Origin: Streptomyces sp. NBC_00878
GTDB taxonomy: Bacteria; Actinomycetota; Actinomycetes; Streptomycetales; Streptomycetaceae
Length of the DNA stretch: 64,000 bases
Reading direction: 5' to 3'
Assembly: GCF_026341515.1 (NCBI RefSeq)
Contig: NZ_JAPEOK010000001.1
Location: 4,898,001-4,962,000, forward strand
Shown: positions 3,208 to 15,087 of the stretch, in pieces
Numbering within the stretch: the first letter of the stretch is position 1
Layout of the letters: each line of letters opens with the position of its first letter
Made by a program: the position numbers and the translations under genes
The notes under the pieces: model-generated
Databases searched by the model: none
Seen by the model: the letters and a program-made list of their open reading frames with translations, nothing else
Told to the model about the DNA's origin: nothing

Positions 3208-5403
3208 TCACTCGAACGGCAACGGCCGCGCATGCACCACGTCCAGCCGCGAAACGGCCCGCGTGAGCACCACGTACAGCCGATGCAGCCCCCGGGCCTC
3301 CCCCTCCGCGATCGCCGCCGGCTCCACGGCGACGACATGGTCGTACTCCAGGCCTTTCGCGACACCGGCCCCCAACACCGTGACGCGCGCGCCCAGTTGG
3401 TCCGCCCCGGCCACGTCGATACCGGCCCCGCCCAGCGTCTCCCGCACCCATCCGACATCCGAGTCGGCCGCGATGACGCCCACCGACCCCTCGTACGAGA
3501 GGGCACGCCGCACGGCCTCGACGGTCTCCCGGGGCACGTCGTCCGTGCGGCGCACCCTCAACTCGCCGTCCCTCCGCAGGGATTGGGCTGCCGCGACTCC
3601 CACGTCCAGCCGTGCCAGTACCCGGTTCGCCAGTTCGACCACCGACTCCGGTACGCGGAAACCGGTGGTCAGCGGCACGACCACCGCCTCCGGTTTGCCC
3701 AGATGGCCGAGGAGTTCGCCCCACTCCCGCGCGGCCCACGGCGTGGTCCCCTGCGCGAGATCGCCGAGCACGGTGACCGACCCGAAGGCCGCCCGCCGCC
3801 CGATCGCCCGGCACTCCATCGGCGACAGGTCCTGCGCCTCGTCGATGACCAAGTGCCCGTATCCTTCCGGGTGTTCGACGAGTCCGGCGACCTCGTCGAG
3901 GAGCACGAGATCGGCCGCCGACCACTTGGCGGACTTCCACGACCGGGGCGGCCGCGCCCACAGCAGCGCCTTCTGTTCGTCCGCGTCCAGCACCCCGTCC
4001 GCCGCCGCGGCCAACGCGTCCGGATCGGTGAGCAGTTCGGCGACCACCTCCTCCGGCCGTGCCCTGGGCCACACGGCGTCGACGTACGCGCTGATGGGCC
4101 GCGCCCGCGAGATCTTCTGCACCCAGGCGTTGGTCTGCGGTCCGGCACGCAACTCGGCCCGCGCCTGCACGTACCGCACGACCCGGGTCCGTACGCGCTC
4201 ACGTCCGACCGCGTACGGCGGTTCCTCGGCCCGCACGCCCGCCACGATCCGCACGAGTTCACCGCCCGGCACCCGCCACCGGTACGAACCGTCGGGCACC
4301 GCAAGGCCGTTGCCCCCCAACACCCCCTCCGCCCCCTCCTCTCCATCCGCCCCGTCCGCCCCGTCCGCACGCACTCGGGAGTAGAGGGCACGCCGCAGGA
4401 CCTCCGCCATGCGGGGGTCGTGCTTGACGGCCGCGGTGGCCTCGGCGTCCTCGCCCGTGACCGGCTGCCGCCCGATCTCCTCACCGACTGTGGACTGCCG
4501 TACACCGGTCTCGCCGAGCGCGGGCAGCACCTCCGAGATGTAGGAGAGGAAGGTGCGGTTCGGCCCCAGGATCAGCAGTCCGCCACGCTGGACGCGCTGC
4601 GGGAACGTGTAGAGCAGGTACGCGGCCCGGTGCAGCCCGACCGCCGTCTTCCCGGTGCCTGGCGCGCCCTGCACGCAGACGGAGACGGTGAAGTCCGCCC
4701 GTACGAGATCGTCCTGTTCGGGCTGGATGGTCGCGGCGATGTCGCGCATCGGGCCGACGCGGGGCCGCTCGATCTCGCTCGCGAGAATGCGACTGCTCAC
4801 TCCCGGCGAACCGGGGAGGCGCCCTTCAACTTGGCGCTCCTGTGCGAGCCGCTCGTCCTCCCGGTGCTCGTAGGCGAGCCGCTCGTCCTCCAGGCCCGTG
4901 AGGTCGGCCGAGTCGCCGCGGCTTCCCGGCGCCCAGCCGAACCGGCGCCGCACATGCACACCCTGTGGATGACGGGCGCTCGCCTGGTAGAAGGCGCGCG
5001 AGACGGGAGCGCGCCAGTCGACGACGAGGGGCGGCGCGGAGGGGTGCTCGGTGATCCTGCGCCGCCCGATGTGATAGCTCTGCCCGGCGTGATCACCCGC
5101 ATGCCCACCCGCATGCTCACCAGCGGGATCAGCGGCGCGATCACCGGCCGTTCCGCGGTCCGCCGCGAAGTCCAACCGCCCGAAGAACAAAGGCCCTTCG
5201 GGCAGTTCCCGCATCTCCTTCGCCCGACTGCGAAGCCGGTACCCGAGTACTTCGGCGTCGGCGCCGGACGCGGATACGTCCTCTCCGGTGACGACGTGTT
5301 CCTGCGCTCCGTCGACCATCGCGGCGAGGGCGGTCCGGCAGGTGTCGTGGTAGACGCGTTCCTGGGTGAGGGAGGTGGTGAGAGCGGGGTCGGGTGACGT
5401 CAT
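3208..5403 (-). CDS. HelD-family superfamily 1 ATPase, RNA polymerase remodelling/recycling
   Basis: A 731-residue UvrD/Rep-like ATPase. The N-terminal arm is followed by the HelD-type block PLFFGRLDF and PLVVDWRAPVSRAFYQ (residues ~71-130), Walker A GAPGTGKT near residue 236, Walker B LVIDEAQDLSP, a QG motif in VLGDLAQGTTPW and a C-terminal helicase motif VVLTRAVSRLDVVH. HelD proteins release stalled RNA polymerase, and some streptomycete members (HelR) confer rifamycin tolerance; I cannot tell the subtype from sequence alone. Low-complexity expansions AGEHAGGHAGDHAG (~84-97) and DGADGADGEEGAEG interrupt the protein. Monocistronic, and convergent with the ArsR-like gene. Confidence 0.85.
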   Translation of the reverse strand: MTSPDPALTTSLTQERVYHDTCRTALAAMVDGAQEHVVTGEDVSASGADAEVLGYRLRSRAKEMRELPEGPLFFGRLDFAADRGTAGDRAADPAGEHAGGHAGDHAGQSYHIGRRRITEHPSAPPLVVDWRAPVSRAFYQASARHPQGVHVRRRFGWAPGSRGDSADLTGLEDERLAYEHREDERLAQERQVEGRLPGSPGVSSRILASEIERPRVGPMRDIAATIQPEQDDLVRADFTVSVCVQGAPGTGKTAVGLHRAAYLLYTFPQRVQRGGLLILGPNRTFLSYISEVLPALGETGVRQSTVGEEIGRQPVTGEDAEATAAVKHDPRMAEVLRRALYSRVRADGADGADGEEGAEGVLGGNGLAVPDGSYRWRVPGGELVRIVAGVRAEEPPYAVGRERVRTRVVRYVQARAELRAGPQTNAWVQKISRARPISAYVDAVWPRARPEEVVAELLTDPDALAAAADGVLDADEQKALLWARPPRSWKSAKWSAADLVLLDEVAGLVEHPEGYGHLVIDEAQDLSPMECRAIGRRAAFGSVTVLGDLAQGTTPWAAREWGELLGHLGKPEAVVVPLTTGFRVPESVVELANRVLARLDVGVAAAQSLRRDGELRVRRTDDVPRETVEAVRRALSYEGSVGVIAADSDVGWVRETLGGAGIDVAGADQLGARVTVLGAGVAKGLEYDHVVAVEPAAIAEGEARGLHRLYVVLTRAVSRLDVVHARPLPFE

Positions 5404-5475
5404 TCGAGCGAGGATAGCCGAATAGCGTGACTCGGTTAACTTTTTTACTTGGCTATGGGGTGGGGCGTATCCAGC

Positions 5476-5605
5476 GCCGGGGCGTCACACGCATCAAGGC
5501 GTCTGCGTTTCGGGACGCCGGGCGTCACGCGCATCGAGGCGTCTGGCGTTTCAGGACGCCAGGCGTCACACGCATCTCGGCGCCAGGCGTCACACGCATC
5601 GCGGC
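5476..5605. repeat. GC-rich tandem repeat with hairpins at the 3' end of the TetR gene
   Basis: Two 41-bp units (5476-5516, 5517-5557) and two 24-bp units (5558-5581, 5582-5605) share GCCNGGCGTCACACGCATC. Junctions create GACGCC/GGCGTC inverted repeats, so the array can fold into hairpins. The last unit contains the stop codon of the TetR gene. A core close to CGTCRCACGCAT is shared with the 24-bp array at 1991-2154. Confidence 0.85.
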
Positions 5606-6195
5606 AATCCCGCCTCAAGTCGCGCGAACGCGCCCTCCGCGGCGACGACGGCATCCCGCCGCACCACCACGACCGACTCGCCCCTCGCGATCCGCCGCCA
5701 GTTCTCCTGCGCGAGGATCCGCTGCACGGCGATGATCTGGCCGGCGGCGAGCCTGTCCTCAAGGCCGCCGCCGAGCGCCTCGGCGAGGGCGGCCTCGGAC
5801 CGCTGCAGGTACTCGTACAGCCGCGCGACCAGCGAAGGGGTCCCGTAGAGCAGCCGGTGAAAGGCGAGGATGTGCGGGTGTTCATTGACCCCGGTAATGG
5901 GGTCGCTCCGCTCGATCCCCGCCAGGAAGTGCCGCCGCAGCACATCGATGGCGGACTCCCCCGGCGCCCGCGCGGCGACCACCCGCGCGGCCTCGGTCTC
6001 GTGATCGGCGAACCGGTGCAGAACCAGGTCCTCCTTCGACGGGAAGTAGCGGAAGAGGGTCGGCTTCGAGATCTGGGCGGCGGCGGCCACCTCCGCGACG
6101 GAAACCCGCTCGAACCCCTTCTCCAGGAAGAGCGAGATGGCGACATCCGACACGTCCTGGTACATCCGCAGCTTCTTGCGCTCACGCAGCCCCAT
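5590..6195 (-). CDS. TetR-family transcriptional regulator
   Basis: 201 residues from MGLRERKKLRMYQDVSDVA. The N-terminal helix-turn-helix is clear (FERVSVAEVAAAAQISKPTLFRYF is the recognition region), followed by an all-helical ligand domain; its length is normal for TetR. The frame stays open upstream to ATG 6375, which would add a 60-residue Gly/Ala/Val-rich stretch with repeated GAA units. I prefer 6195 because family members start just before the LRERKK motif, though neither start has a strong ribosome binding site. Its last codons lie inside a tandem repeat. The target is probably itself or a neighbour; no operator was recognised. Confidence 0.8.
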   Translation of the reverse strand: MGLRERKKLRMYQDVSDVAISLFLEKGFERVSVAEVAAAAQISKPTLFRYFPSKEDLVLHRFADHETEAARVVAARAPGESAIDVLRRHFLAGIERSDPITGVNEHPHILAFHRLLYGTPSLVARLYEYLQRSEAALAEALGGGLEDRLAAGQIIAVQRILAQENWRRIARGESVVVVRRDAVVAAEGAFARLEAGLPRCV

Positions 6196-6219
6196 GGCAC
6201 TCACCACATCCGCAGTACC

Positions 6220-6310
6220 CACCGCATCCGCAGTACCCACCGCACCTGCCGCACCTGCCGCACCTGCCGCACCTGCCGAGTCCGCCGTACTCACTGCGCC
6301 CACCGGCCCC
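6220..6310. repeat. short trinucleotide-like repeats upstream of or within the TetR N-terminus
   Basis: CGCATCCGCAGTACCCAC occurs twice (with one changed copy) and GCACCTGCC about four times in a row. Read on the minus strand in the TetR frame it encodes Gly-Ala-Ala repeats. It is either an expanded N-terminus or noncoding leader. Confidence 0.7.
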
Positions 6311-6446
6311 ATTGGCCCCATTGGCCCCACGGCGCTCACCCCGCTCACGCCGCCCACAGCACCCGTCTCGCCCATGCCCCGAGGGTACGCACCTTCCGGA
6401 CTCCCGCCCTCCCCTTGACCACGACCAAAGTTGAGGCCGAAGACTG

Positions 6447-6818
6447 TCAGCCGTCGCTCTCCTCGGTGGCGAGGGCGTCCCGGTCGACGACGGCAGGGCC
6501 GCAGCCCGGCGGCAAGCGCTCGACGACCATCGCCACGGCCGCCTCGACGCTGTGGACCTCTCCCACGAACTCGGTCCTGGACGGCCCTTCCACACGGAAC
6601 CGACCGCCCGGCTGTGGGCGTATGTAGGGGACATCCCACGTCCAGGGATTTTCGATGCAGCGGCTGAAGTGCAGTTCCCCATGACCGCTCCAGGGGAAGA
6701 GCTGCCGAAGCCGAGGCTCGGCATAGGCGGCTCGCACCAACTCGCTGTCCACGTACTGCGCACCGAACAGCGTCTTCCATTCAGCCTCTGTTCTGGCTGC
6801 GGCGTCCTGAACTGCCAT
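6447..6818 (-). CDS. small DUF6193-like protein, last gene of the GntR1 operon
   Basis: 123 residues from MAVQDAAARTEAEWKTLFGA, with ribosome binding site GGAAGGA about 9 nt upstream. The pattern of ELVRAAYAEPRLRQLFPW, SHGxLxFSR-like GHGELHFSRC, the WDVPYI segment and VERLPPGCGPAV resembles DUF6193 proteins, which sit in various regulatory and natural-product loci and have no known function. The assignment is from memory of the family pattern and should be searched. It follows the membrane protein by 62 nt and is probably the fourth gene of the operon beginning at 11172. Confidence 0.6.
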   Translation of the reverse strand: MAVQDAAARTEAEWKTLFGAQYVDSELVRAAYAEPRLRQLFPWSGHGELHFSRCIENPWTWDVPYIRPQPGGRFRVEGPSRTEFVGEVHSVEAAVAMVVERLPPGCGPAVVDRDALATEESDG

Positions 6819-6880
6819 GGTCGGGATCCTTCCACACGGCCGCGGCGGGACGGCTGCGGCCAGTCGTCGGTGAGGTGTTC

Positions 6881-7768
6881 TCAGGGCGGCGTTCCGCCAC
6901 GCCAACTCGGTACCGACGCCAGGCTCCACAGGTCGTCCAGATGCTTGTTCCATGTGGCGACAACGGCCTTGGAGTCGTCGCTGCCCTTCGGGGACCAGAC
7001 GTTGAGATCGGTGCGGTAACCCTTGGGGTCGTAGAACTCCGGATCCGAACTGCGCAGCACAGTCCGTGCCATCACGTCGTAGAGACCGTGCAGCACCTGA
7101 TCCCGGTTGAAGATGCAGATCTTGTCCCTCGGTATGCCGGGGTAGAGGCGGTACTCGCACTCTGCCGTGACCCGCCCCAGCCCGGTGAGCCGTTCCGCGA
7201 GGCCCGAGAGCGTCTGGTCGTACTCCTGGCACTTGCGCTCCAGTCGCTTCCGGAAGTCGGGATCGTCCAGGGGCGCCCCTCCCGGACCCACCCTCGACGG
7301 AACGGTCATCGGCTGCCCGAAGTCCGGAATCAGCACTCTGACGGAGACGTGCCTGGTCGGTCCTGGATCGTCGAGCAGTCCCTCCAGGCGGTGGTAGAGC
7401 TCGTTGTAGAGCGTCTCGCCCGTGTAGCCGAGGAAACTGATCTCCACCATCCGAGCGTCGAACGCCTCACTAACGAAGCTGCCCAGCTCCCTCGACTGGA
7501 CCTGCCCGCGCGTCGGCAGGCGAAGCGAGGCAGCGAGGTCCTTCAGCGTGTCGTACAGCACGTAGCCGACCAGACTGAGCAGCGCGCCGCCCAGGAATAC
7601 CTTGTCCTGTAAGGCGTCCCCGACCGGCTTCACGAACTGGGCCGTCACTCCGATGACGAAGATCGCCATCAGCAGGATTCGCGTGACCGCCGGCTCATAG
7701 CGGGCCTGGAACCGCCTGAGCCGTTCGCCCATGCCACCGTCGGCCGGCCTGCTTCCCCCACCGGACAT
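6881..7768 (-). CDS. membrane-anchored protein with a domain shared with the nearby GntR regulators
   Basis: 295 residues. Two hydrophobic segments lie near residues 30-75 (ILLMAIFVIGVTAQFV and FLGGALLSLVGYVLY), followed by a ~200-residue cytosolic domain. That domain has VEISFLGYTGETLYNELYHR, VSVRVLIPDF and later RDKICIFNRDQVLHGLYDV. The same order (beta-strand, VR-LLP, then K-x4-N) is present in the ligand domains of the GntR proteins at 10213, 12283 and 13789. The K-x4-N element looks like a degenerate phospholipase-D HKD motif with the His lost. This is inference. It starts 40 nt after the tandem kinase gene and is probably cotranscribed. Likely a membrane sensor rather than an enzyme. 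Confidence 0.7.
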   Translation of the reverse strand: MSGGGSRPADGGMGERLRRFQARYEPAVTRILLMAIFVIGVTAQFVKPVGDALQDKVFLGGALLSLVGYVLYDTLKDLAASLRLPTRGQVQSRELGSFVSEAFDARMVEISFLGYTGETLYNELYHRLEGLLDDPGPTRHVSVRVLIPDFGQPMTVPSRVGPGGAPLDDPDFRKRLERKCQEYDQTLSGLAERLTGLGRVTAECEYRLYPGIPRDKICIFNRDQVLHGLYDVMARTVLRSSDPEFYDPKGYRTDLNVWSPKGSDDSKAVVATWNKHLDDLWSLASVPSWRGGTPP

Positions 7769-7807: not shown

Positions 7808-10042
7808 TCAGACGTCCGCGGAGAAACCAGCCGTCCGTAGGTCTCCATGGTGTCCGTGCGGCAGTGCACGGGCAAGATAGGGGTTCGCCACAGATCTGTC
7901 TGGCAGTCCCAGCCCGGCCATGGCTCCGGCCAGGGTCATGGCATAGGAGTCCACCGCCCGTCGGACGTTCGGGGTATCCAGGCTGTCGCCGGTCACGAGG
8001 CGGTCGAGGTCCACGTAGGCGGAGCGGATGACTTCCATCCACCGGTACACACGCCAGTCCTCGAGCCAGCCCTTGGTGCAGTCCTCCGGCAGCAGACGGA
8101 CCCAGCGGGAGAACAGACGTCCACGGATCTCGGGGCGCGTCGGGGTGAGATGTATGTGGCGGACCAGGTCGTACAGCGGATCACCGACCATCGCCATCTC
8201 CCAGTCGATGAGGGTCAGACCACCGTTCTCACGGCGTACGAGGTTCCACGGGTTGAGGTCGCCGTGCAGGAGCACGGGCCGTCGCGGGACCAAGGTGTGG
8301 CGGTCGAGGATCTCACCCAGTCGGTGGCTGCTGGGGAGGCCCAGCTCTCGCGCCAAATTCCGGGTGGACTTGGGAAGTTCGGTCACCATGCGGACCAGTT
8401 CGCCACTCCGTCCCGAGTAGAAGTGCAGGCCTTCCAACTCGGGATCGAGCTGTTCGCAGTCGACGAGGGCCAGAGCGCGGAGCTGGTCGACGAGGTCATC
8501 GGCCTCGTACGGCAGGAGCCCGTCCGCGGGGTGGTCCGGCGGACGGATGCCGTCCGCCGGACCCTCGTAGGAGTGGATGGTGAACTCGTCCCGAAGACCG
8601 CTGGAGCCCAGGGCCAGCACCCTCGGGGCTCTCACCGCAGCCCCCGACTCCTCGATCGTCCTCAGAACGACGTGTTCGTTGAGCACTCGGCGTTCCAGCG
8701 GTTTCGCCGAGCCCACCTTTCGGCGGACCATGACCGGGAACGGCACCCCCGACACCCGGACCGCCGTGCTGAGATGCGCGGTTCCCTTGAACACCCGGTC
8801 CGAGGAGGCCGCCCCCTCCTCGAACAGCGCCTCCTGCACCGCCGATGCCCGGAACTCGGGGTGCTCCGGGACCCGCGGATCACGTTGCCAGGGGATCTGG
8901 GAAACAGATCTGTCGCGGCTGTGCCGGCCCCCGTGGGACTCGTTCCACCGGAAGAGGATGCGCTCGATCGCCGTCTTGTCCGGCACGCTCTTGAGCCGCA
9001 GGGGTTCCTCGGCAGCCTTCAGGGCTTGGTACACCGCTCCTGTCGCGGAGTCCAGGTCCCGCTGGTCGAACGAGTCGCCGAGCCCGGTGGCAGCGCGCAT
9101 GACATCCGGGTACACCGACTGGGCGCGCTCGAAGGCCACGTATTGCTTCAGATCCCGGTCGAGGCCGTTGACGGCTTTGCTGCGCCGCTCGCCCATGGCC
9201 ATGGCCCACGCCTCGATGACCTCGGGCCACTGGTAGTCGGGGTACTGCATCCGCACCAAATGGGTGGCGAGATCATGCAGCGGGTCGCCATAGGTCGCGA
9301 GCTCCCAGTCGACACAGATCAGGGGCGGATCACCCTGGAAGGAGACGATGACGTTGTCCCGGTGCAGGTCCGTGTGGAGCAGGCTGAACGGACGCCTGAT
9401 GAGCGTCGGCACCCGTTCCGCGAACCGCACCATCGCGTCGTCGGGGATCCCCAGCATCGCGAACAGCCCGCCGAAATCGGCCCAGTTGCGCTGTCTGATC
9501 TGCTCCTCGACCGCGAACGCCAGCGCCCGCAGAAAGGCTCGGCTGTCCCGGCTGGAGCGGGGCCAGGAGGCGGGCAGCGGAGGAAGATGCTGCCTGCGCA
9601 CCTGCGTCATGTCCGCGAGGAGACCCACGAGGGCGGCGATCAGTCCACCGTCCACCGGCTTACCGTTGGGGCAGATGCTGGAGAGAGGCACGCCCTCCAC
9701 ATAGCTGAGGATGATCACGTCCCGGCGCTTGACCAGACACCGCGGAACATGCGGAAGGACACCGGAGATCGTGTTGAGGATCTCCGCCTCGTCCTGCCAG
9801 GTCCTGATGACCACGGGCAGCGCCGCCCGGATCCGCTCCCGCACCGTGACCGCTTCACCGTCGTCGCAGGCCACGAGGCGCGAGTCGTCCTCCGTGGGCG
9901 GCCGCACCATGTAGTTCAGGTTGTGGTGTCCGCGGCCGAACGATCCGTGCTCTTTGGCATAGTGCACGAACTTGCCATACGCGTCGTCCGCCGCTCTTTC
10001 CAGAGCGAGTACGGCGGGTGCTGGCACGGGCGGACTGCCCAC
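7808..10042 (-). CDS. tandem aminoglycoside/choline-type phosphotransferase (two kinase domains)
   Basis: About 744 residues containing two APH-fold kinase domains. The first has LLHTDLHRDNVIV followed by ICVDWELATYGDPLHDL; the second has LLHGDLNPWNLV followed by LTLIDWEMAMVGDPLYDLV. Both keep the catalytic Asp/Asn and the DFG-like Asp, so both may be active. Substrate unknown; the family phosphorylates small alcohols, amino sugars or antibiotics. The frame opens at GTG 10072, but GTG 10042 has AGGAG 5 nt upstream and is preferred. It follows the GntR1 regulator and precedes the membrane protein, suggesting a regulator-kinase-sensor operon. A double-APH arrangement of this size is uncommon. 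Confidence 0.8.
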   Translation of the reverse strand: MGSPPVPAPAVLALERAADDAYGKFVHYAKEHGSFGRGHHNLNYMVRPPTEDDSRLVACDDGEAVTVRERIRAALPVVIRTWQDEAEILNTISGVLPHVPRCLVKRRDVIILSYVEGVPLSSICPNGKPVDGGLIAALVGLLADMTQVRRQHLPPLPASWPRSSRDSRAFLRALAFAVEEQIRQRNWADFGGLFAMLGIPDDAMVRFAERVPTLIRRPFSLLHTDLHRDNVIVSFQGDPPLICVDWELATYGDPLHDLATHLVRMQYPDYQWPEVIEAWAMAMGERRSKAVNGLDRDLKQYVAFERAQSVYPDVMRAATGLGDSFDQRDLDSATGAVYQALKAAEEPLRLKSVPDKTAIERILFRWNESHGGRHSRDRSVSQIPWQRDPRVPEHPEFRASAVQEALFEEGAASSDRVFKGTAHLSTAVRVSGVPFPVMVRRKVGSAKPLERRVLNEHVVLRTIEESGAAVRAPRVLALGSSGLRDEFTIHSYEGPADGIRPPDHPADGLLPYEADDLVDQLRALALVDCEQLDPELEGLHFYSGRSGELVRMVTELPKSTRNLARELGLPSSHRLGEILDRHTLVPRRPVLLHGDLNPWNLVRRENGGLTLIDWEMAMVGDPLYDLVRHIHLTPTRPEIRGRLFSRWVRLLPEDCTKGWLEDWRVYRWMEVIRSAYVDLDRLVTGDSLDTPNVRRAVDSYAMTLAGAMAGLGLPDRSVANPYLARALPHGHHGDLRTAGFSADV

Positions 10043-10212
10043 GGTCACTCCTGAATAGCTGTGCGTTACCACTGATCTTTATGCGCTGCAAGTGGAAAAA
10101 CGACACAGTAGTGGCAAGCACCACGGCGATGACCGAACTCCGCCGGATCGATACGAACTTGAGCGGAGACACCACCTCTTCAGCCTTACGCCGACCGAGT
10201 CCTGCGGAAGTC

Positions 10213-11172
10213 CTACGGATTCAGAGGCGGTTCTGCCGGTTCCGGCGATTCCGGCGGGCCTTCGGCCAGGAGGTTCCAGCAGGAGTCGAACCAGGACTGC
10301 ATACTCTCGATGAACATGGATCCCGGAGCGTTCGAGTCGCCTTCGTCATTGACGTGACGGGTCAGCTTCGATTCGAGGCCGAGCACATCCAGGGCGTCGA
10401 CGGTATCGCCACCCAGCAGGATGGGGCGCTCCACCACCTCGTATGGTCCGAACAGCACCTCGGCGTCCCGGCGCAGATACAGCTTGCTCGACGGGGCCAG
10501 CGGTACGTGCCTGATCTCCACTTCCACCGACGGCACCTTGTGCTGCGTCTTCAGGTCGATCAGGGCATCGTGCAACGACTCGGTGTGCCTGCGGGTGATG
10601 GCGTGGAGCCGCTCCTGAAGCTGCTCCTGCAACCGGTCCAATTCATCGGGTGCCCGCCGCACGTCCGCATCCCCGACCGTCTCCCTGGCGCGGGGATACG
10701 GAAGCTCCAGAGATTCCGAAGGCAGCAGCATGCGCAACTCGATGCGCTCGGGCGGAACCACCTCGCCGAGCCGGATGCGCTCCGCCTGCACGCGGATGTG
10801 GGTGTCCAGGGACTCGGACGTGAGGGTGAACACGTCCAACCGCACGACCGGCTGGGCGAAGGCCCGAGCGATGAAGGGCCCCAGGGCCGCACGCACCCGG
10901 GGCGTCTCCGGCTGCCGTATCCGTGAGTGGATCGGGCTGTGGTGGACGACCGTTGTCCCGCTGCCTTGGCGGGACTTGACCCATCCGTCGGCGCTCAGCT
11001 CCCGCAACACCCGCTGGACCGTGTCACGCGAGACCTCGAACTCCTCGGCGAGCTCCCGCTGCGGGGGCAGCTGGGACTTCAGCGCGTACGTGCCGTCGGC
11101 GATACGAGTACGCAGCGCGTCCAGGACACGCTCGAACTCCTTGCCGCCTCCGTCGCCGCGTTCTGTGCTCAC
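10213..11172 (-). CDS. GntR-family regulator 1 with C-terminal PLD-like sensor domain
   Basis: 319 residues from GTG 11172. Winged helix at ~10-75 (SQLPPQRELAEEFEVSRDTV, SADGWVKSRQGSGTTVVHH). The C-terminal domain has VVRLDVFTLTSESLDTH, PERIELRMLLPS and SSKLYLRRDAEVLFGPYEVV, the same layout as in the GntR proteins at 12283 and 13789 and the membrane protein at 6881. It begins a four-gene operon (kinase, membrane protein, DUF6193-like). It is divergent from the 62-residue peptide gene at 11367. TACGGT sits exactly 6 nt before the GTG, indicating a leaderless transcript. Confidence 0.85.
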   Translation of the reverse strand: MSTERGDGGGKEFERVLDALRTRIADGTYALKSQLPPQRELAEEFEVSRDTVQRVLRELSADGWVKSRQGSGTTVVHHSPIHSRIRQPETPRVRAALGPFIARAFAQPVVRLDVFTLTSESLDTHIRVQAERIRLGEVVPPERIELRMLLPSESLELPYPRARETVGDADVRRAPDELDRLQEQLQERLHAITRRHTESLHDALIDLKTQHKVPSVEVEIRHVPLAPSSKLYLRRDAEVLFGPYEVVERPILLGGDTVDALDVLGLESKLTRHVNDEGDSNAPGSMFIESMQSWFDSCWNLLAEGPPESPEPAEPPLNP

Positions 11173-11178
11173 ACCGCG

Positions 11179-11184
11179 ACCGTA
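11179..11184 (-). promoter_or_regulatory. -10 element of the leaderless GntR1 transcript
   Basis: TACGGT on the minus strand is followed by 6 nt and then the GTG start at 11172. The two sister GntR genes have the same spacing. Confidence 0.6.
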
Positions 11185-11366
11185 CCTCGCCCACCCCACG
11201 AGCAAACCGCTTCCAGTCACATTGGCGGCCCGGCACTACACCCAACCAATCCAAAATTGACTGACAGTTAAGGGATCAAGCAGTCAGGGAACATTCAACT
11301 CAACACAGAATCAGCCCAACTGGACCGCAAGTTGATCGATCCGCTGAACTGGACGGGGTGGGGAAC

Positions 11367-11555
11367 ATGGTCTTCTTCCAACTAGTGGGCGTCGGCATCG
11401 AATTCGCGATAGCCCAGCTGGTCCAATCGACGCTCGGGTACGCGGGCCTGGTCCTGCTGACCCTCGCACTGGTGGGGGCCCGAGGGGGCCACCCCCGATT
11501 GGCCTGCTGGTCGGCAGGCCTCTTCTTTCTGCTGACCCTTCAACTTCAGGCCTGA
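11367..11555 (+). CDS. small hydrophobic membrane peptide 1 (62 aa), divergent from GntR1
   Basis: 62 residues beginning MVFFQLVGVGIEFAIAQLVQ, with two predicted membrane segments separated by a short basic loop (VGARGGHPR). Length and layout match the peptides at 13431 (62 aa) and 14902 (61 aa), though sequence similarity is weaker than between those two. GGGGTGGGG lies just upstream of ATG 11367; GTG 11358 is an alternative start. The last 10 nt overlap the convergent HAD gene. No known family recognised; small size and pairing with a repressor-type gene recall toxin-like or stress peptides, but that is only inference. Confidence 0.65.
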   Translation: MVFFQLVGVGIEFAIAQLVQSTLGYAGLVLLTLALVGARGGHPRLACWSAGLFFLLTLQLQA

Positions 11556-12283
11556 CTCCGCAGCACCCGCAGCACCGGTTCCAGCGAGCCCACCACGGCC
11601 TCGGCCCCCGCGTCGCGCAGTTCCTTCTCCTTGTCGCCGTTACGCGCGTAGCCAAGGAAGGGAACACCGGCGCGCTGAGCGGCTTCGTAGTCCGAAGGGG
11701 CGTCGCCGATCATCAGCGCGGACTGCGGGGCGGCGCCGAGGGCGTTCAGGGCCCGGTTGAGGCAGTGCGGGTCCGGCTTGAGCTGGTGCAGGTCCTGGGT
11801 GCGCCCGTAGATGTTGGGGGTGAAGCAGTCGGCGAGACCACGGTTCTCCAGGTAACTGACCGCGGTCCGCGGCGAGTTGTTGGTCGCCACGGCCAGCCGG
11901 GCGCCGACCGCGCTCCAGGTCCGTATCAGCGGATCCGCGAACTCGGTGGGCCAGGCGGAGGGCACCGCCTTCAGTTCCTGCTGGGTGAGCCGTTCCTCCA
12001 GCTCGACCACCAGATCGCTGTGCGGATGACGCCGGTTGACCGCGTACAGGACCGCCATCGGGTCGGGGTGGACACGCTCGTCCTCGGTCAGCAGTCCGCG
12101 CAGCCCCTGCCGCGCCAGCCACTCCACCAGATCCTTCGCCACGTCCTCCGCCGAGTGCCCCGCGAAGAGCCGACAGATCGGCCCGTCGAAGTCGAAGAGC
12201 ACGAAGCGGGCGCGCTTGATCACTTCCTGGAGGTTCTCTGTCTCTGCTGCCACCGGACCAGTCTGCTTCGTATCAGGAGTCAC
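11546..12283 (-). CDS. HAD-superfamily hydrolase, coupled to GntR2
   Basis: 245 residues from GTG 12283. Motif I FVLFDFDGPIC, motif II VATNNS, conserved Lys in QLKPDPH, and motif III MIGDAPSDYEAA, giving a phosphoglycolate-phosphatase-like HAD phosphatase with an alpha-helical cap. Its GTG shares one base with the TAG stop of GntR2, so the two are translationally coupled. The substrate may be the metabolite sensed by GntR2 (inference). An alternative in-frame GTG lies about 11 codons further in. It is convergent with, and overlaps by 10 nt, the small peptide gene at 11367. Confidence 0.85.
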   Translation of the reverse strand: MTPDTKQTGPVAAETENLQEVIKRARFVLFDFDGPICRLFAGHSAEDVAKDLVEWLARQGLRGLLTEDERVHPDPMAVLYAVNRRHPHSDLVVELEERLTQQELKAVPSAWPTEFADPLIRTWSAVGARLAVATNNSPRTAVSYLENRGLADCFTPNIYGRTQDLHQLKPDPHCLNRALNALGAAPQSALMIGDAPSDYEAAQRAGVPFLGYARNGDKEKELRDAGAEAVVGSLEPVLRVLRSQA

Positions 12284-13161
12284 TAGGAGAGTGTCAGGTC
12301 CGTCGTAATGGTTTCCCAGAGGGCGTCGAACCACTTTTGGGACTGCTCGACGAAGGCGGCGTCGCGTTGGCCGACCCTTTGCTCGAAGGAGAACAAGAGG
12401 GAGGCGGAGCCCAGGGCGTCGTACATGTCGAGCGTGCCGCTGTCCCCGGCCTCCTCCCGCCGCGTGATCATGTAGTACGCGATGAGGGCCTGGACACCGT
12501 TGAGCAGGTACAGCTTCACCGGCGGGGTGAACGGGAGCGCCCGGAACCGCACGTTGACGTCGATGCCGTGCGAGGAGCGCAGGGCCTTGAGGTTGTGGCG
12601 CAGGACGTGGCCCTGGGCGTTGCGCATCTCCAGCCAGCGCTGGTGGACCGGATCCCGGTCTCCGTCTCCCTGCGCTTCGACGGAGACGGGGAAGGCGAGG
12701 TTGATGTCCCGGGAGGGCAGCAGGATGCGGACGTCGATCGACTCCGGGCGGAGCCTGCCCTCGTGGATCAGGCGAACCGGTTCGCCGAGGGCCAGCATCA
12801 GGGTCTCGGCGGTGAGGCACGCGGCGTCCACCCGTACGTGCGGCGCGGCGAACGCCTCGGCCAACTGCGGCGCCAACCCCACCATCGTCGGCTGAGGCTC
12901 GCCCTGCGGAGGAGTCACGTCCGCGATGCGCGGCGGGCTCCCCTTGCTGACGTTGCTCAGCCGGCCTTCGTCCTGAAGTGCCCGCAGGGCCTGGCGGATC
13001 GTGCCGCGCTCCACGCCGAACTCCTCGGCCAGCTCGGCCTGGGTGGGCAGGCGGTCGCCGGCGCGCAGGTCACCCGCGCGGATGCGGTCCCGCAGGATGT
13101 CGGCGATCTCCTGCGGCGAGAGCCTTCTGGTGCCGTCCACTGCCACGTTCTCCTGGGTCAC
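12283..13161 (-). CDS. GntR-family regulator 2 with C-terminal PLD-like sensor domain
   Basis: About 292 residues from GTG 13161. Winged helix ~12-75 (AGDRLPTQAELAEEFGVERG, then LQDEGRLSNVSKGSPPRI). Sensor domain with HVRVDAACLTAETLMLALGE, ESIDVRILLPSRDINLAFP, and PPVKLYLLNGVQALIAYYMI, ending WFDALWETITTDL. It is closely similar to GntR3 along its full length. TAGCGT lies 6 nt before GTG 13161, implying a leaderless message; a downstream GTG preceded by CAGGAG is an alternative. Divergent from the 62-residue peptide gene at 13431, with an AGTTGG/CCAACT palindrome 88 nt from the start. Confidence 0.85.
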   Translation of the reverse strand: MTQENVAVDGTRRLSPQEIADILRDRIRAGDLRAGDRLPTQAELAEEFGVERGTIRQALRALQDEGRLSNVSKGSPPRIADVTPPQGEPQPTMVGLAPQLAEAFAAPHVRVDAACLTAETLMLALGEPVRLIHEGRLRPESIDVRILLPSRDINLAFPVSVEAQGDGDRDPVHQRWLEMRNAQGHVLRHNLKALRSSHGIDVNVRFRALPFTPPVKLYLLNGVQALIAYYMITRREEAGDSGTLDMYDALGSASLLFSFEQRVGQRDAAFVEQSQKWFDALWETITTDLTLS

Positions 13162-13167
13162 GACCAA

Positions 13168-13173
13168 ACGCTA
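13168..13173 (-). promoter_or_regulatory. -10 element of the leaderless GntR2 transcript
   Basis: TAGCGT on the minus strand, 6 nt before the GTG start. The flanking GTTGTAG-GTTTGGT is conserved at the GntR3 gene. Confidence 0.6.
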
Positions 13174-13248
13174 CAACTTCACCCCATCTTAGGGGAGTTG
13201 TTTGAAAGTTGTTTTGAAGTAGAGACCAACTGGGGATAACTTAACCAT

Positions 13249-13263
13249 AGTTGGCAACCAACT
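13249..13263. promoter_or_regulatory. palindromic operator candidate, GntR2/peptide 2
   Basis: AGTTGG-CAA-CCAACT, perfect 6-bp arms. It starts 88 nt upstream of the GntR2 GTG; an equivalent site lies at exactly the same distance from GntR3. Candidate GntR-binding site controlling the divergent peptide gene. Confidence 0.6.
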
Positions 13264-13430
13264 CAAGAAAGATGGCGGAATCCATGCCTCCTCTCACAAG
13301 TACTTGGCAGCTGATAAGTGTCCGCACCTCCCCAGCATCGTCCCGCACCTCAGCACCACAGGCCCCACCGCCCCACCCCGCTCCACCCTCGCCCCGAAAG
13401 ACCTCGAAGGACCCCGAAGGAGGATCCACC

Positions 13431-13619
13431 ATGCCAGCCATAGCCTTCCTCTCCGCCGTCTTCGTCGTCGGCTTCGAGCAGTTCGTCGGATGGCAGTACG
13501 GCCCCGGCGGCGTCGTCGGGCTGCTGCTGCTCACGGTCGGCATCAAGGCGAAGAGCCCGACGTGCAGCTCGATAGGCGCCGTCGTCCTCGCCCTGATGTT
13601 CTCCGGCCCGGCCCTGTGA
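13431..13619 (+). CDS. small hydrophobic membrane peptide 2 (62 aa), divergent from GntR2
   Basis: 62 residues: MPAIAFLSAVFVVGFEQFVG at the start, two membrane segments, and the central VGIKAKS loop shared with peptide 3 (VGFEQ...VGIKAK in both). GAAGGAGG lies 8 nt before the ATG. Paralogous to the peptides at 14902 and, more distantly, 11367. The gene is convergent with GntR3, from which it is separated by palindromic repeats. No family recognised. Whether it is secreted, a membrane sensor partner or a toxin-like peptide cannot be told from sequence. Confidence 0.75.
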   Translation: MPAIAFLSAVFVVGFEQFVGWQYGPGGVVGLLLLTVGIKAKSPTCSSIGAVVLALMFSGPAL

Positions 13620-13717
13620 CCCGCACAACCCGTACGGCCCGTATATCGCGTACGGCCCGTACAGCCCGTCTGGCCCGTATGACCTGCGAGGACGATCCAC
13701 CCGAAGATCCGGTACGG

Positions 13718-13783
13718 ATACCGGTTTCCGTACCGGTACGGATACGTGGGATACCGGTTTCCGTACCGGTACGGATACGTGGG
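13718..13783. repeat. exact 33-bp tandem duplication containing 16-bp palindromes
   Basis: Units 13718-13750 and 13751-13783 are identical. Each contains TCCGTACCGGTACGGA, a perfect 16-bp palindrome. The array lies between the convergent 3' ends of peptide 2 and GntR3 and can fold into two strong hairpins, so a bidirectional terminator role is plausible. The preceding bases (13621-13680) hold degenerate CCCGTACGGCCCGTA repeats. Confidence 0.9.
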
Positions 13784-13788
13784 AGACC

Positions 13789-14691
13789 TCAGCCCGTGAG
13801 CACCAGCTCGGAGCTGATGGTCTCCCACAGTGCGTTGAACCACAGATGGGACTGCTCCACGAACGTCGTGTCCCGCATGCCGTCCCCCTGCTCGAAGGGG
13901 AACAGCATGGACTGGGTCCCCTCCGCGTCGTACATCTCCAGGTACTCGTGGTCGATCTCCTCGCCGCGCCGCGACAGCGTGTAGTACGCGAAGAGCGCCT
14001 CCGACCCGTTGAGCAGATACAGCTTCACGGGTGGAGTGAACGGCAGGGCCCGGAACGTGATGTGTACGTCGATGCCGTGCGTGGCCCGTAACGCCAGCAG
14101 GTTGTGCTTGAGGACCTGGCCCTGGGCGTTGCGGTGGGCCAGCCAGCGGCGCTGCAGCCGGTCGTCGACCGTGTCGTCCACGGGTGCCGGGAAGGCGAGG
14201 TCGATATCGCTGGACGGCAGGAGCACCCGGACGTCGACCCTGGCCGGTTTTAGTCGCCCCTCGTGGATGAGACGCAACGGCTCACCCATCGCGAGAGTGA
14301 GGGAGACCGCCGTCAGGCACAGGGCGTCGATCTCCACATGAGGGGCCGAGAAGGCGTCCGTGATCCGTGACGCGAGCGCCACCATGGTGGGCTGCGGCGG
14401 AGCTCCGGGCCCGGTCAGAGCCGGTCCCACGTCCTGGGCGACCGTCGCCGGGCTCCCTTTGGACACGTTGGACAGCAGGTGTTCCGACTGCAGGATGCGC
14501 AGGGCCTGCCGCACCGCCCCGCGCTCGACGCCGAACTCGTCGGCCAACTGGGCCTGTGTGGGCATGCGCTGGCCAGGCCGCAGCTCACCGGACCTGATCC
14601 GGGTGCGCAGCTCCTCGGCCACCTCGCGGTGTGACCTCTGTGGCCGTTGTGACCTCTTCCGCCCATTGACGGCGACGTGTTCCGGGTCCAC
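13789..14691 (-). CDS. GntR-family regulator 3 with C-terminal PLD-like sensor domain
   Basis: About 300 residues from GTG 14691. Winged helix ~15-80 (PGQRMPTQAQLADEFGVERG, LQSEHLLSNVSKGSP). Sensor domain HVEIDALCLTAVSLTLAMGE, ARVDVRVLLPSSDIDLAFP and PPVKLYLLNGSEALFAYYTL, ending WFNALWETISSELVLTG. It is a close paralogue of GntR2. TAGGGT lies 6 nt before the GTG (leaderless). A short Arg/Gln/Ser-rich expansion (RSQRPQRSHRE) precedes the DNA-binding domain and is absent from GntR2. Divergent from the 61-residue peptide at 14902 with a conserved palindrome between them. Confidence 0.85.
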   Translation of the reverse strand: MDPEHVAVNGRKRSQRPQRSHREVAEELRTRIRSGELRPGQRMPTQAQLADEFGVERGAVRQALRILQSEHLLSNVSKGSPATVAQDVGPALTGPGAPPQPTMVALASRITDAFSAPHVEIDALCLTAVSLTLAMGEPLRLIHEGRLKPARVDVRVLLPSSDIDLAFPAPVDDTVDDRLQRRWLAHRNAQGQVLKHNLLALRATHGIDVHITFRALPFTPPVKLYLLNGSEALFAYYTLSRRGEEIDHEYLEMYDAEGTQSMLFPFEQGDGMRDTTFVEQSHLWFNALWETISSELVLTG

Positions 14692-14697
14692 AACCAA

Positions 14698-14703
14698 ACC
14701 CTA
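14698..14703 (-). promoter_or_regulatory. -10 element of the leaderless GntR3 transcript
   Basis: TAGGGT on the minus strand, 6 nt before GTG 14691, in the same context as at GntR2. Confidence 0.6.
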
Positions 14704-14777
14704 CAACTTCGCGCCATCTTTGGGCAGTTATTGAGAAGGTGGTTATGAGACGCATCCAAACGGAGATAAGTTCAGTG

Positions 14778-14794
14778 AAGTTGGTTACCAACTT
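14778..14794. promoter_or_regulatory. palindromic operator candidate, GntR3/peptide 3
   Basis: AAGTTGG-TTA-CCAACTT, perfect 7-bp arms. The core AGTTGG-N3-CCAACT begins 88 nt from the GntR3 start, as at GntR2. The flanking GATAAGTT is also shared. Confidence 0.6.
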
Positions 14795-14901
14795 GAGCAA
14801 CATGGTCAAGCTTCCCAGGGGTTGGCCGCCAGAGTCGAAGCCCTCGACCAGGCGAACGGTCCCAGCGGGGGTCCGCCTCCCCGTCCCGAAGGAGGGACCG
14901 C

Positions 14902-15087
14902 ATGCCGCTCATCGCCATCATCGTCGCTGCCCTCGCCGTCGGTTTCGAGCAGCTTCTCCAGCTGAAGTTCGGCGCGTTGGGCGTCATCGCCTTCGTCGCC
15001 CTCGCCGTCGGCATCAAAGCCAAGAATTCCATGATCGGCGGCATCGGGGCCGTGATCCTCGTGATGCTGCTCGCCCAGTCCGGCTGA
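14902..15087 (+). CDS. small hydrophobic membrane peptide 3 (61 aa), divergent from GntR3
   Basis: 61 residues starting MPLIAIIVAALAVGFEQLLQ, two membrane segments around the loop VGIKAKNS. GAAGGAGG lies 8 nt before the ATG. It is clearly paralogous to peptide 2 (VGFEQ and VGIKAK conserved). Its 3' end, including the stop codon, is part of a direct repeat, followed by a terminator hairpin. Function unknown; see the finding on the three regulator/peptide cassettes. Confidence 0.75.
   Translation: MPLIAIIVAALAVGFEQLLQLKFGALGVIAFVALAVGIKAKNSMIGGIGAVILVMLLAQSG

Follow-up and report, generated by a model that had tools for sequence, protein, structure and literature searches.

Organisation of the dev locus

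The 64,000-nucleotide stretch of Streptomyces sp. NBC_00878 analyzed here (contig NZ_JAPEOK010000001.1, positions 4,898,001 to 4,962,000, hereafter the window, in a genome of 11.1 Mb) carries three genes for GntR regulators, each of which faces a small gene encoding a hydrophobic peptide. The locus is the dev locus of Streptomyces with devA, devB, devC and devE, extended by a further, more divergent cassette (10213–11555). A first-pass annotation had proposed three regulators with a common sensor layout and three facing peptide genes, and all six open reading frames (ORFs) were confirmed in place (Table 1). Its view that such a unit is unknown from the literature does not hold, as the arrangement of devA, devB, devC and devE is already described for S. 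coelicolor in the part of Clark and Hoskisson (2011) available to us (PMC3187754).

All three regulators combine an N-terminal GntR winged-helix domain (PF00392 above cut-off, E 2e-20 to 3e-17) with a homologous C-terminal domain, as expected for the DevA subfamily, and are homologous over their full length. Across the whole alignment, DevE (regulator 3) is 63% and regulator 1 33% identical to DevA, which itself reaches up to 92% identity in named relatives. Searching the proteins of the own genome gave 34 matches; three are full-length, all in the window, and the remaining 31 are confined to the DNA-binding part. The devA operon is recognizable by the devB-type hydrolase gene downstream and the small divergent ORF, devC, upstream.

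The peptides comprise 62, 62 and 61 residues, as first annotated. Identity is 41% between peptides 2 and 3, which do have VGFEQ and VGIKAK in common, and only 21% between peptides 1 and 2. With grand averages of hydropathy (GRAVY) of 1.23 to 1.67 they are very hydrophobic, and as hydrophobic proteins of about 60 residues divergent from a DevA-family gene they belong to the DevC family. The annotated two-helix architecture is uncertain, since the predicted structure has three short helices (residues 3–22, 26–39 and 43–57) at low confidence (predicted local distance difference test, pLDDT, 62).

Table 1. Features of the dev locus and its surroundings in the window.
Feature	Position	Strand	Basis
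Probable membrane protein, 295 residues, C-terminal part homologous to DevA sensor domain	6881..7768	-	Alignment with the three regulators; regulator-profile match at model positions 90–286 only
Double APH-type phosphotransferase, directly downstream of regulator 1	7808..10072	-	PF01636, two stretches, E 1.5e-42
Regulator 1, third-class DevA-family GntR regulator, 33% identical to DevA	10213..11172	-	PF00392, alignment, genome search
Promoter-like sequence for peptide 1, AGTTAA-N15-GGGAAC	11266..11292	+	By eye against class consensus; regular expression failed at first -35 base
Degenerate third-class palindrome AGTCCAATTGGACT, 3 mismatches	11313..11326	none	Pattern search
Peptide 1, 62 residues, third-class DevC-like peptide	11367..11555	+	ORF, alignment, profile
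devB, HAD-type hydrolase gene following devA; start codon set in this analysis	11546..12253	-	PF00702, E 5e-18
devA, SCO4190 orthologue	12283..13161	-	PF00392, genome search; context as in the available part of PMC3187754
Putative devC promoter, SigF/H/N type, GTTTTG-N15-GGGGAT	13211..13237	+	Promoter expression; counterpart of published SCO4189p
Putative DevA operator TAGTTGGCAACCAACTC, 2 mismatches at ends, core exact	13248..13264	none	Pattern search
devC (peptide 2), 62 residues, SCO4189-type	13431..13619	+	ORF, divergent pairing, L199 comparison
devE, SCO4188 orthologue	13789..14691	-	PF00392, alignment, genome search
Promoter-like sequence for peptide 3, GGTTAT-N15-GGAGAT	14741..14767	+	Promoter expression
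Putative DevE operator, perfect palindrome AAGTTGGTTACCAACTT	14778..14794	none	Pattern search
Peptide 3, 61 residues, DevE partner, SCO4187-type	14902..15087	+	ORF, L199 comparison; SCO4187 in the available part of PMC2000904

Pairing and duplication of the cassettes

The association of regulator and peptide was followed in 167 sequences (loci L001–L080 and L111–L196 plus the window; the short pieces L081–L110 were left out), with regulator classes assigned by best match. They contain 384 full-length regulators (162 DevA, 137 DevE and 85 of the third class), a redundant count in which some genomes occur twice, and 35 more, partial hits. A divergent peptide gene lies beside 254 of the 384 and, viewed from the peptide, 254 of 264 hits divergently adjoin a full-length DevA-family regulator. 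Over unique upstream regions, the peptide is present at 126/153 DevA, 62/130 DevE and 53/81 third-class copies. Of 240 peptides, 227 have a nearest neighbour from their own regulator class, against a mean of 92 with shuffled labels. In a tree of 97 peptides, drawn at random with at most 32 from each class and supplemented by those of the window, 4 class changes suffice versus 45.9 in shuffles; the tree is built on just 59 columns, and its bootstrap is unsettled. All three cassette classes occur together in 28 of the 134 loci with at least one cassette. The annotated idea of regulator and divergent hydrophobic peptide as a recurrent unit is thus borne out. Since peptide subclass tracks regulator class, the sequences indicate that the cassettes were duplicated as whole units, the partner of DevE apparently often being lost. 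The genes downstream also go with the class: a devB-type relative comes next in 143 of 162 DevA-class genes, and a relative of the double phosphotransferase gene in 57 of 84 third-class regulators.

The peptide family profile was seeded with all three window peptides and so finds them, peptide 1 included, by construction. An independent link between classes comes from peptide 3 as the only query, which matched third-class peptides in two genomes (G049, E 1.4e-5; G024, E 4.3e-4); peptide 1 itself was not matched in this search. Relatives of peptide 3 are present in 83 of 150 sampled genus genomes, its own included, and are therefore beyond chance, and relatives of peptide 1 in 7 of 150. Peptide length is characteristic of the class, with modes of 62 residues in DevA (103/131), 61 in DevE (44/65) and 60 in the third class (38/56; redundant counts). 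By simple counting over pairs of 70 to 97% identity (2712, 773 and 38 pairs for DevA, DevE and third class), the ratio of non-synonymous to synonymous differences (pN/pS) is 0.52, 0.56 and 0.49 in frame, 0.76, 0.63 and 0.94 in the +1 frame and about 2 in the +2 frame. Pfam gave weak matches to the peptides (best E 0.01, DUF3309; DUF7519 in 21 of 67 members), PHROGs at best E 0.0032 (phrog_22626, without function, 10 of 67 members); no solved structure matched the profile at E up to 1, and no PADLOC model matched the three peptides at E up to 0.01.

With regard to range, the DevA sensor domain was detected in 102 of 150 genus genomes (E up to 1e-5), of which weak matches may be other carriers of the domain. 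Among 296 genomes of the taxonomic class, the DevA-family domain occurs in 32, 22 in the genus and 10 outside, and the peptide in 18, all within the genus and among its 22 domain carriers; four genus members (G284, G304, G314 and G393) have the sensor domain and no peptide match. Upstream of 13 peptide-less DevA-family loci (10 outside the genus, 3 inside; 0.7 to 1.2 kb each), a search for small hydrophobic ORFs gave candidates in 5, about 0.9 to 1 kb off, and three of these loci, from one genus (L104, L108 and L109), share a similar ORF of 56–57 residues that is unlike DevC. Of the 68 peptide-less DevE intergenic regions 36 were examined, and 7 have an ORF with a ribosome-site-like match. A hidden replacement gene was not clear in any of these 36; the L135 candidate is a 44-residue remnant of the peptide, and six hydrophilic ORFs are taken for chance or antisense frames.

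Two loci deserve separate mention. L113 (genome G085) has an orphan DevC-like peptide at about 4355–4530, in a 10-kb stretch without DevA-family regulator and a genome without DevA-sensor match. At L067 (G077, 4998–6955) the devC peptide is intact, while DevA and DevE are fragments in different frames.

Palindromes and promoters

The divergent regions contain two palindromes, AAGTTGGnnnCCAACTT, common to DevA and DevE cassettes, and AGTCCAATTGGACT of the third class. Allowing 2 mismatches, AAGTTGGnnnCCAACTT lies upstream of the regulator in 113/126 DevA and 59/62 DevE copies with peptide, in 11/27 and 64/68 of the respective copies without, and in 0/81 third-class copies. Conversely, AGTCCAATTGGACT is found in 42/53 third-class copies with and 10/28 without peptide, and in 0/283 DevA and DevE copies. 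The exact core AGTTGGnnnCCAACT occurs three times in the own genome, at devA, at devE and once inside another ORF; this third site (C1:3711609) was rejected as a further target, lying over codons for ELVTNS. In 61 genus genomes, 46 sites match the DevA/DevE palindrome with at most one mismatch and 32 of them, by hand count, lie in dev loci. Most palindrome sites therefore belong to the dev locus, despite the lack of genome-wide enrichment.

According to Table 2 of PMC8346170, as far as accessible, the SCO4189 promoter is SigF-, SigH- and SigN-dependent in an E. coli two-plasmid test. Its exact 44 bases are found in 1 of 392 genus genomes, in a stretch (L199) that has a 62-residue DevC directly downstream and also encodes, facing devE, a 61-residue peptide with computed mass 6268.7 and pI 9.52. 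The available text of PMC2000904 gives SCO4187, a putative membrane protein, a mass of 6268 Da and a pI of 9.5, and reports a lowered transcript level in a bldA mutant. We infer that L199 stems from S. coelicolor or a near relative; given the promoter and mass/pI matches, both small ORFs are therefore annotated in S. coelicolor, with expression evidence. In L199, 11 bases separate the end of the published promoter's -10 element from the palindrome core. Among intergenic regions with peptide, 91/126 DevA, 49/62 DevE and 27/53 third-class ones contain a SigB-type promoter pattern (15-base spacer); the opposite strand gave 0 matches, and shuffled sets averaged at most 1.0. Of the peptide-less DevA copies, 1/27 has the pattern. 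In the window, the regions before devC and peptide 3 match the SigF/H/N type in sequence, activity being published for SCO4189p only, in E. coli.

The sensor domain

The C-terminal domain of the regulators matches no Pfam family at E up to 10, and that of DevA has no convincing PDB sequence match (best E 0.11). In the predicted model of DevA this domain is mixed strand-helix and hence not of the all-helical FadR type; the prediction is a phospholipase-D (PLD)-like alpha/beta fold without catalytic histidine. The HKD catalytic motif is the mark of PLD superfamily enzymes. DevA-family domains do not carry it: the lysine is kept, histidine at K-2 is found in only 2 of 82 aligned rows (2 of 379 motif-recognized hits in a wider count, out of 419 hits in total), and 70 of the 82 have Asn in place of the Asp. 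VIA-align rows to members of the HutC subfamily, which has a UTRA-type C-terminal domain, extend over the DNA-binding part.

Downstream of regulator 1, the 6881–7768 product, judging from its sequence probably a membrane protein, has a DevA-type PLD-like domain without DNA-binding domain, and relatives are found near dev loci in several genomes. Between this gene and regulator 1 sits the phosphotransferase gene with its two APH-type domains in tandem. The gap from devC to the 3' end of devE (13629–13788) is filled by tandem repeats of 9-/18-base units and a 33-base unit matched 97%, and at 1991–2134, within an ORF and towards its 5' end, a 24-base unit occurs six times (95% matched) and encodes repeated RRTHGLEE.

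Proposed mechanism and alternatives

We consider it fairly probable that each cassette of regulator, peptide and sporulation-sigma promoter is an autoregulated switch dedicated to one small membrane protein. A promoter of the SigF/SigH/SigN type (stress and sporulation sigma factors) in the divergent region would drive the peptide, and the GntR regulator would bind the palindrome just downstream of the -10 element and before its own gene, repressing the peptide and itself. DevA would also repress devB, and regulator 1 probably the kinase operon. The accessible part of PMC3187754 treats devA and devE as regulators of sporulation and lists devA itself and devB as known to be under DevA control, crediting repression of its own transcription to an earlier paper of the same authors. 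The PLD-like domain without catalytic histidine would act as ligand sensor, perhaps for a phosphorylated compound, which is suggested because the neighbouring genes encode kinases or, in the case of devB, a phosphatase-type hydrolase. Synthesis of the peptide would follow from an active sporulation sigma factor together with relief of repression by the ligand, and its site of action would be the membrane of hyphae that are growing aerially or septating. Our sequence comparison has shown the pairing, the conserved palindrome with its promoter-like block and the apparent duplication as units, by which the control logic seems well supported; binding at the palindrome, the ligand class and the membrane location and role of the peptide are what we infer. 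Rather doubtful, in our estimate, is a wider idea, in which a hitherto unrecognized type of GntR regulator with a dead PLD sensor, in a dedicated pair with a membrane peptide of about 60 residues made under sporulation sigma factors, would read a phosphorylated lipid or head-group-like compound and set a membrane property at one stage of hyphal development. Duplication of such pairs, rather than of the regulator by itself, would then have provided the timing of aerial growth (DevA), of septation (DevE) and of a third stage.

Several observations weigh against a dedicated switch. The first-pass annotation had named beforehand findings that would speak against a unit, regulators normally without peptide and peptides without conservation or codon constraint, and these are seen in part. 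No recognizable peptide lies beside 68/130 DevE, 28/81 third-class and 27/153 DevA copies (unique regions), nor was any found at the ten DevA-family loci outside the genus in a frame search of 0.7 to 1.2 kb upstream; codon constraint is modest, the in-frame ratio of the DevE class being only slightly under that of the +1 frame. As to the regulatory sites, the palindromes and the promoter expression were derived from the very regions in which they were counted, and the counts record conservation rather than an independent test. Genome-wide, the palindrome is no commoner than a reversed-pattern control (46 vs 50), so that only its placement stands out; the third-class palindrome of the window carries three mismatches, and the promoter of peptide 1 escapes the regular expression. 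The palindrome is kept in most peptide-less DevE copies, and the promoter pattern in 59/68 DevE and 15/28 third-class copies without peptide, and therefore this block may serve the regulator. The structural model of the peptide is poor, and Foldseek scores of the sensor model to PLD-like chains are low (template modeling scores of 0.29 to 0.33 of the query), the fold resting on a predicted model. Finally, the devA and devE phenotypes could arise from targets with degenerate sites missed by our pattern.

These phenotypes also speak for regulators that act mainly on development genes elsewhere, with the peptides as neutral or accessory hitch-hikers in a divergent promoter. In the part of PMC3187754 at hand, devA mutants form short, mis-septate aerial hyphae and devE mutants long, unseptate ones, i.e. 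strong and differing effects; the peptides missing beside many DevE copies and outside the genus, and the modest pN/pS, fit as well. The near confinement of the exact palindrome core to the locus in the own genome, the class-wise conserved peptide length and the sporulation-sigma promoter published for the peptide (PMC8346170, available part) speak against it, and we regard this explanation as improbable. An unlikely explanation too, but the least improbable of the three considered, is that the peptide is itself a signal or anti-repressor. Whole or as a piece, it would bind to the PLD-like domain of its own regulator and relieve repression in a positive feedback. This agrees with the way peptide subclass goes with regulator class, and membrane contact of the domain may occur, a neighbouring, probably membrane-bound protein having the same one; the peptides are, however, very hydrophobic, and the palindrome kept in 64 of 68 peptide-less DevE copies indicates that the regulator seems not to need the peptide. 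Least likely of all would be a membrane-active, toxin-like protein restrained by the regulator, for instance one that lyses hyphae or causes arrest in compartments undergoing sporulation. A short hydrophobic protein beside a dedicated regulator and a sporulation-type promoter would suit such a role, whereas the PADLOC search was negative and the peptide is often missing beside a retained DevE, unlike in a protected toxin pair.

With a dedicated switch, the target of each regulator would be direct and nearly exclusive, namely the small membrane protein encoded opposite to it; the comparison further offers a likely operator, a link to sporulation sigma factors and a predicted sensor fold. What DevA and DevE sense and control becomes approachable by simple experiments in S. 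coelicolor; the ligands and wider targets of both are called unknown in the available part of PMC3187754.

Comparison with known systems

The window resembles the dev locus of S. coelicolor (devA SCO4190, devE SCO4188), as far as the source describes it, in gene order, divergent small ORF and the hydrolase gene after devA, and differs from it by the additional, divergent third cassette, which has a palindrome of its own and is followed by a kinase gene. DevE and DevA are 57–58% identical in that species (PMC3187754, available part), as compared to 63% in the window. The same text reports that S. sviceus and S. coelicolor alone retain the devC-like gene of devE, whereas in our set 62 of the 130 unique DevE copies have it; the published account, in which chiefly the regulator was retained, would need revision if whole cassettes are what duplicates. 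S. sviceus DevF and DevG, there given as 31 and 33% identical to DevA, are about as divergent as regulator 1, and our guess, from these identity figures, is that they represent the third class.

Like the FadR and HutC subfamilies of GntR regulators, which have an N-terminal winged helix and palindromic operators, often in divergent regions (PMC4494728, accessible part), the DevA family has the winged helix and putative palindromic operators; the all-helical C-terminal domain of FadR, described in the same source, is unlike the domain predicted here. The predicted fold of the latter is similar to Nuc/NucT, single-domain members of the PLD superfamily, from which the DevA-family domain differs in the loss of the catalytic histidine, an Asp position that is mostly Asn, and fusion to a GntR DNA-binding domain. 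In summary, the devA/devC/devE layout was known, while the 254/264 pairing with its tracking of classes, the palindromes, the promoter placement and the prediction of a PLD-like sensor are new.

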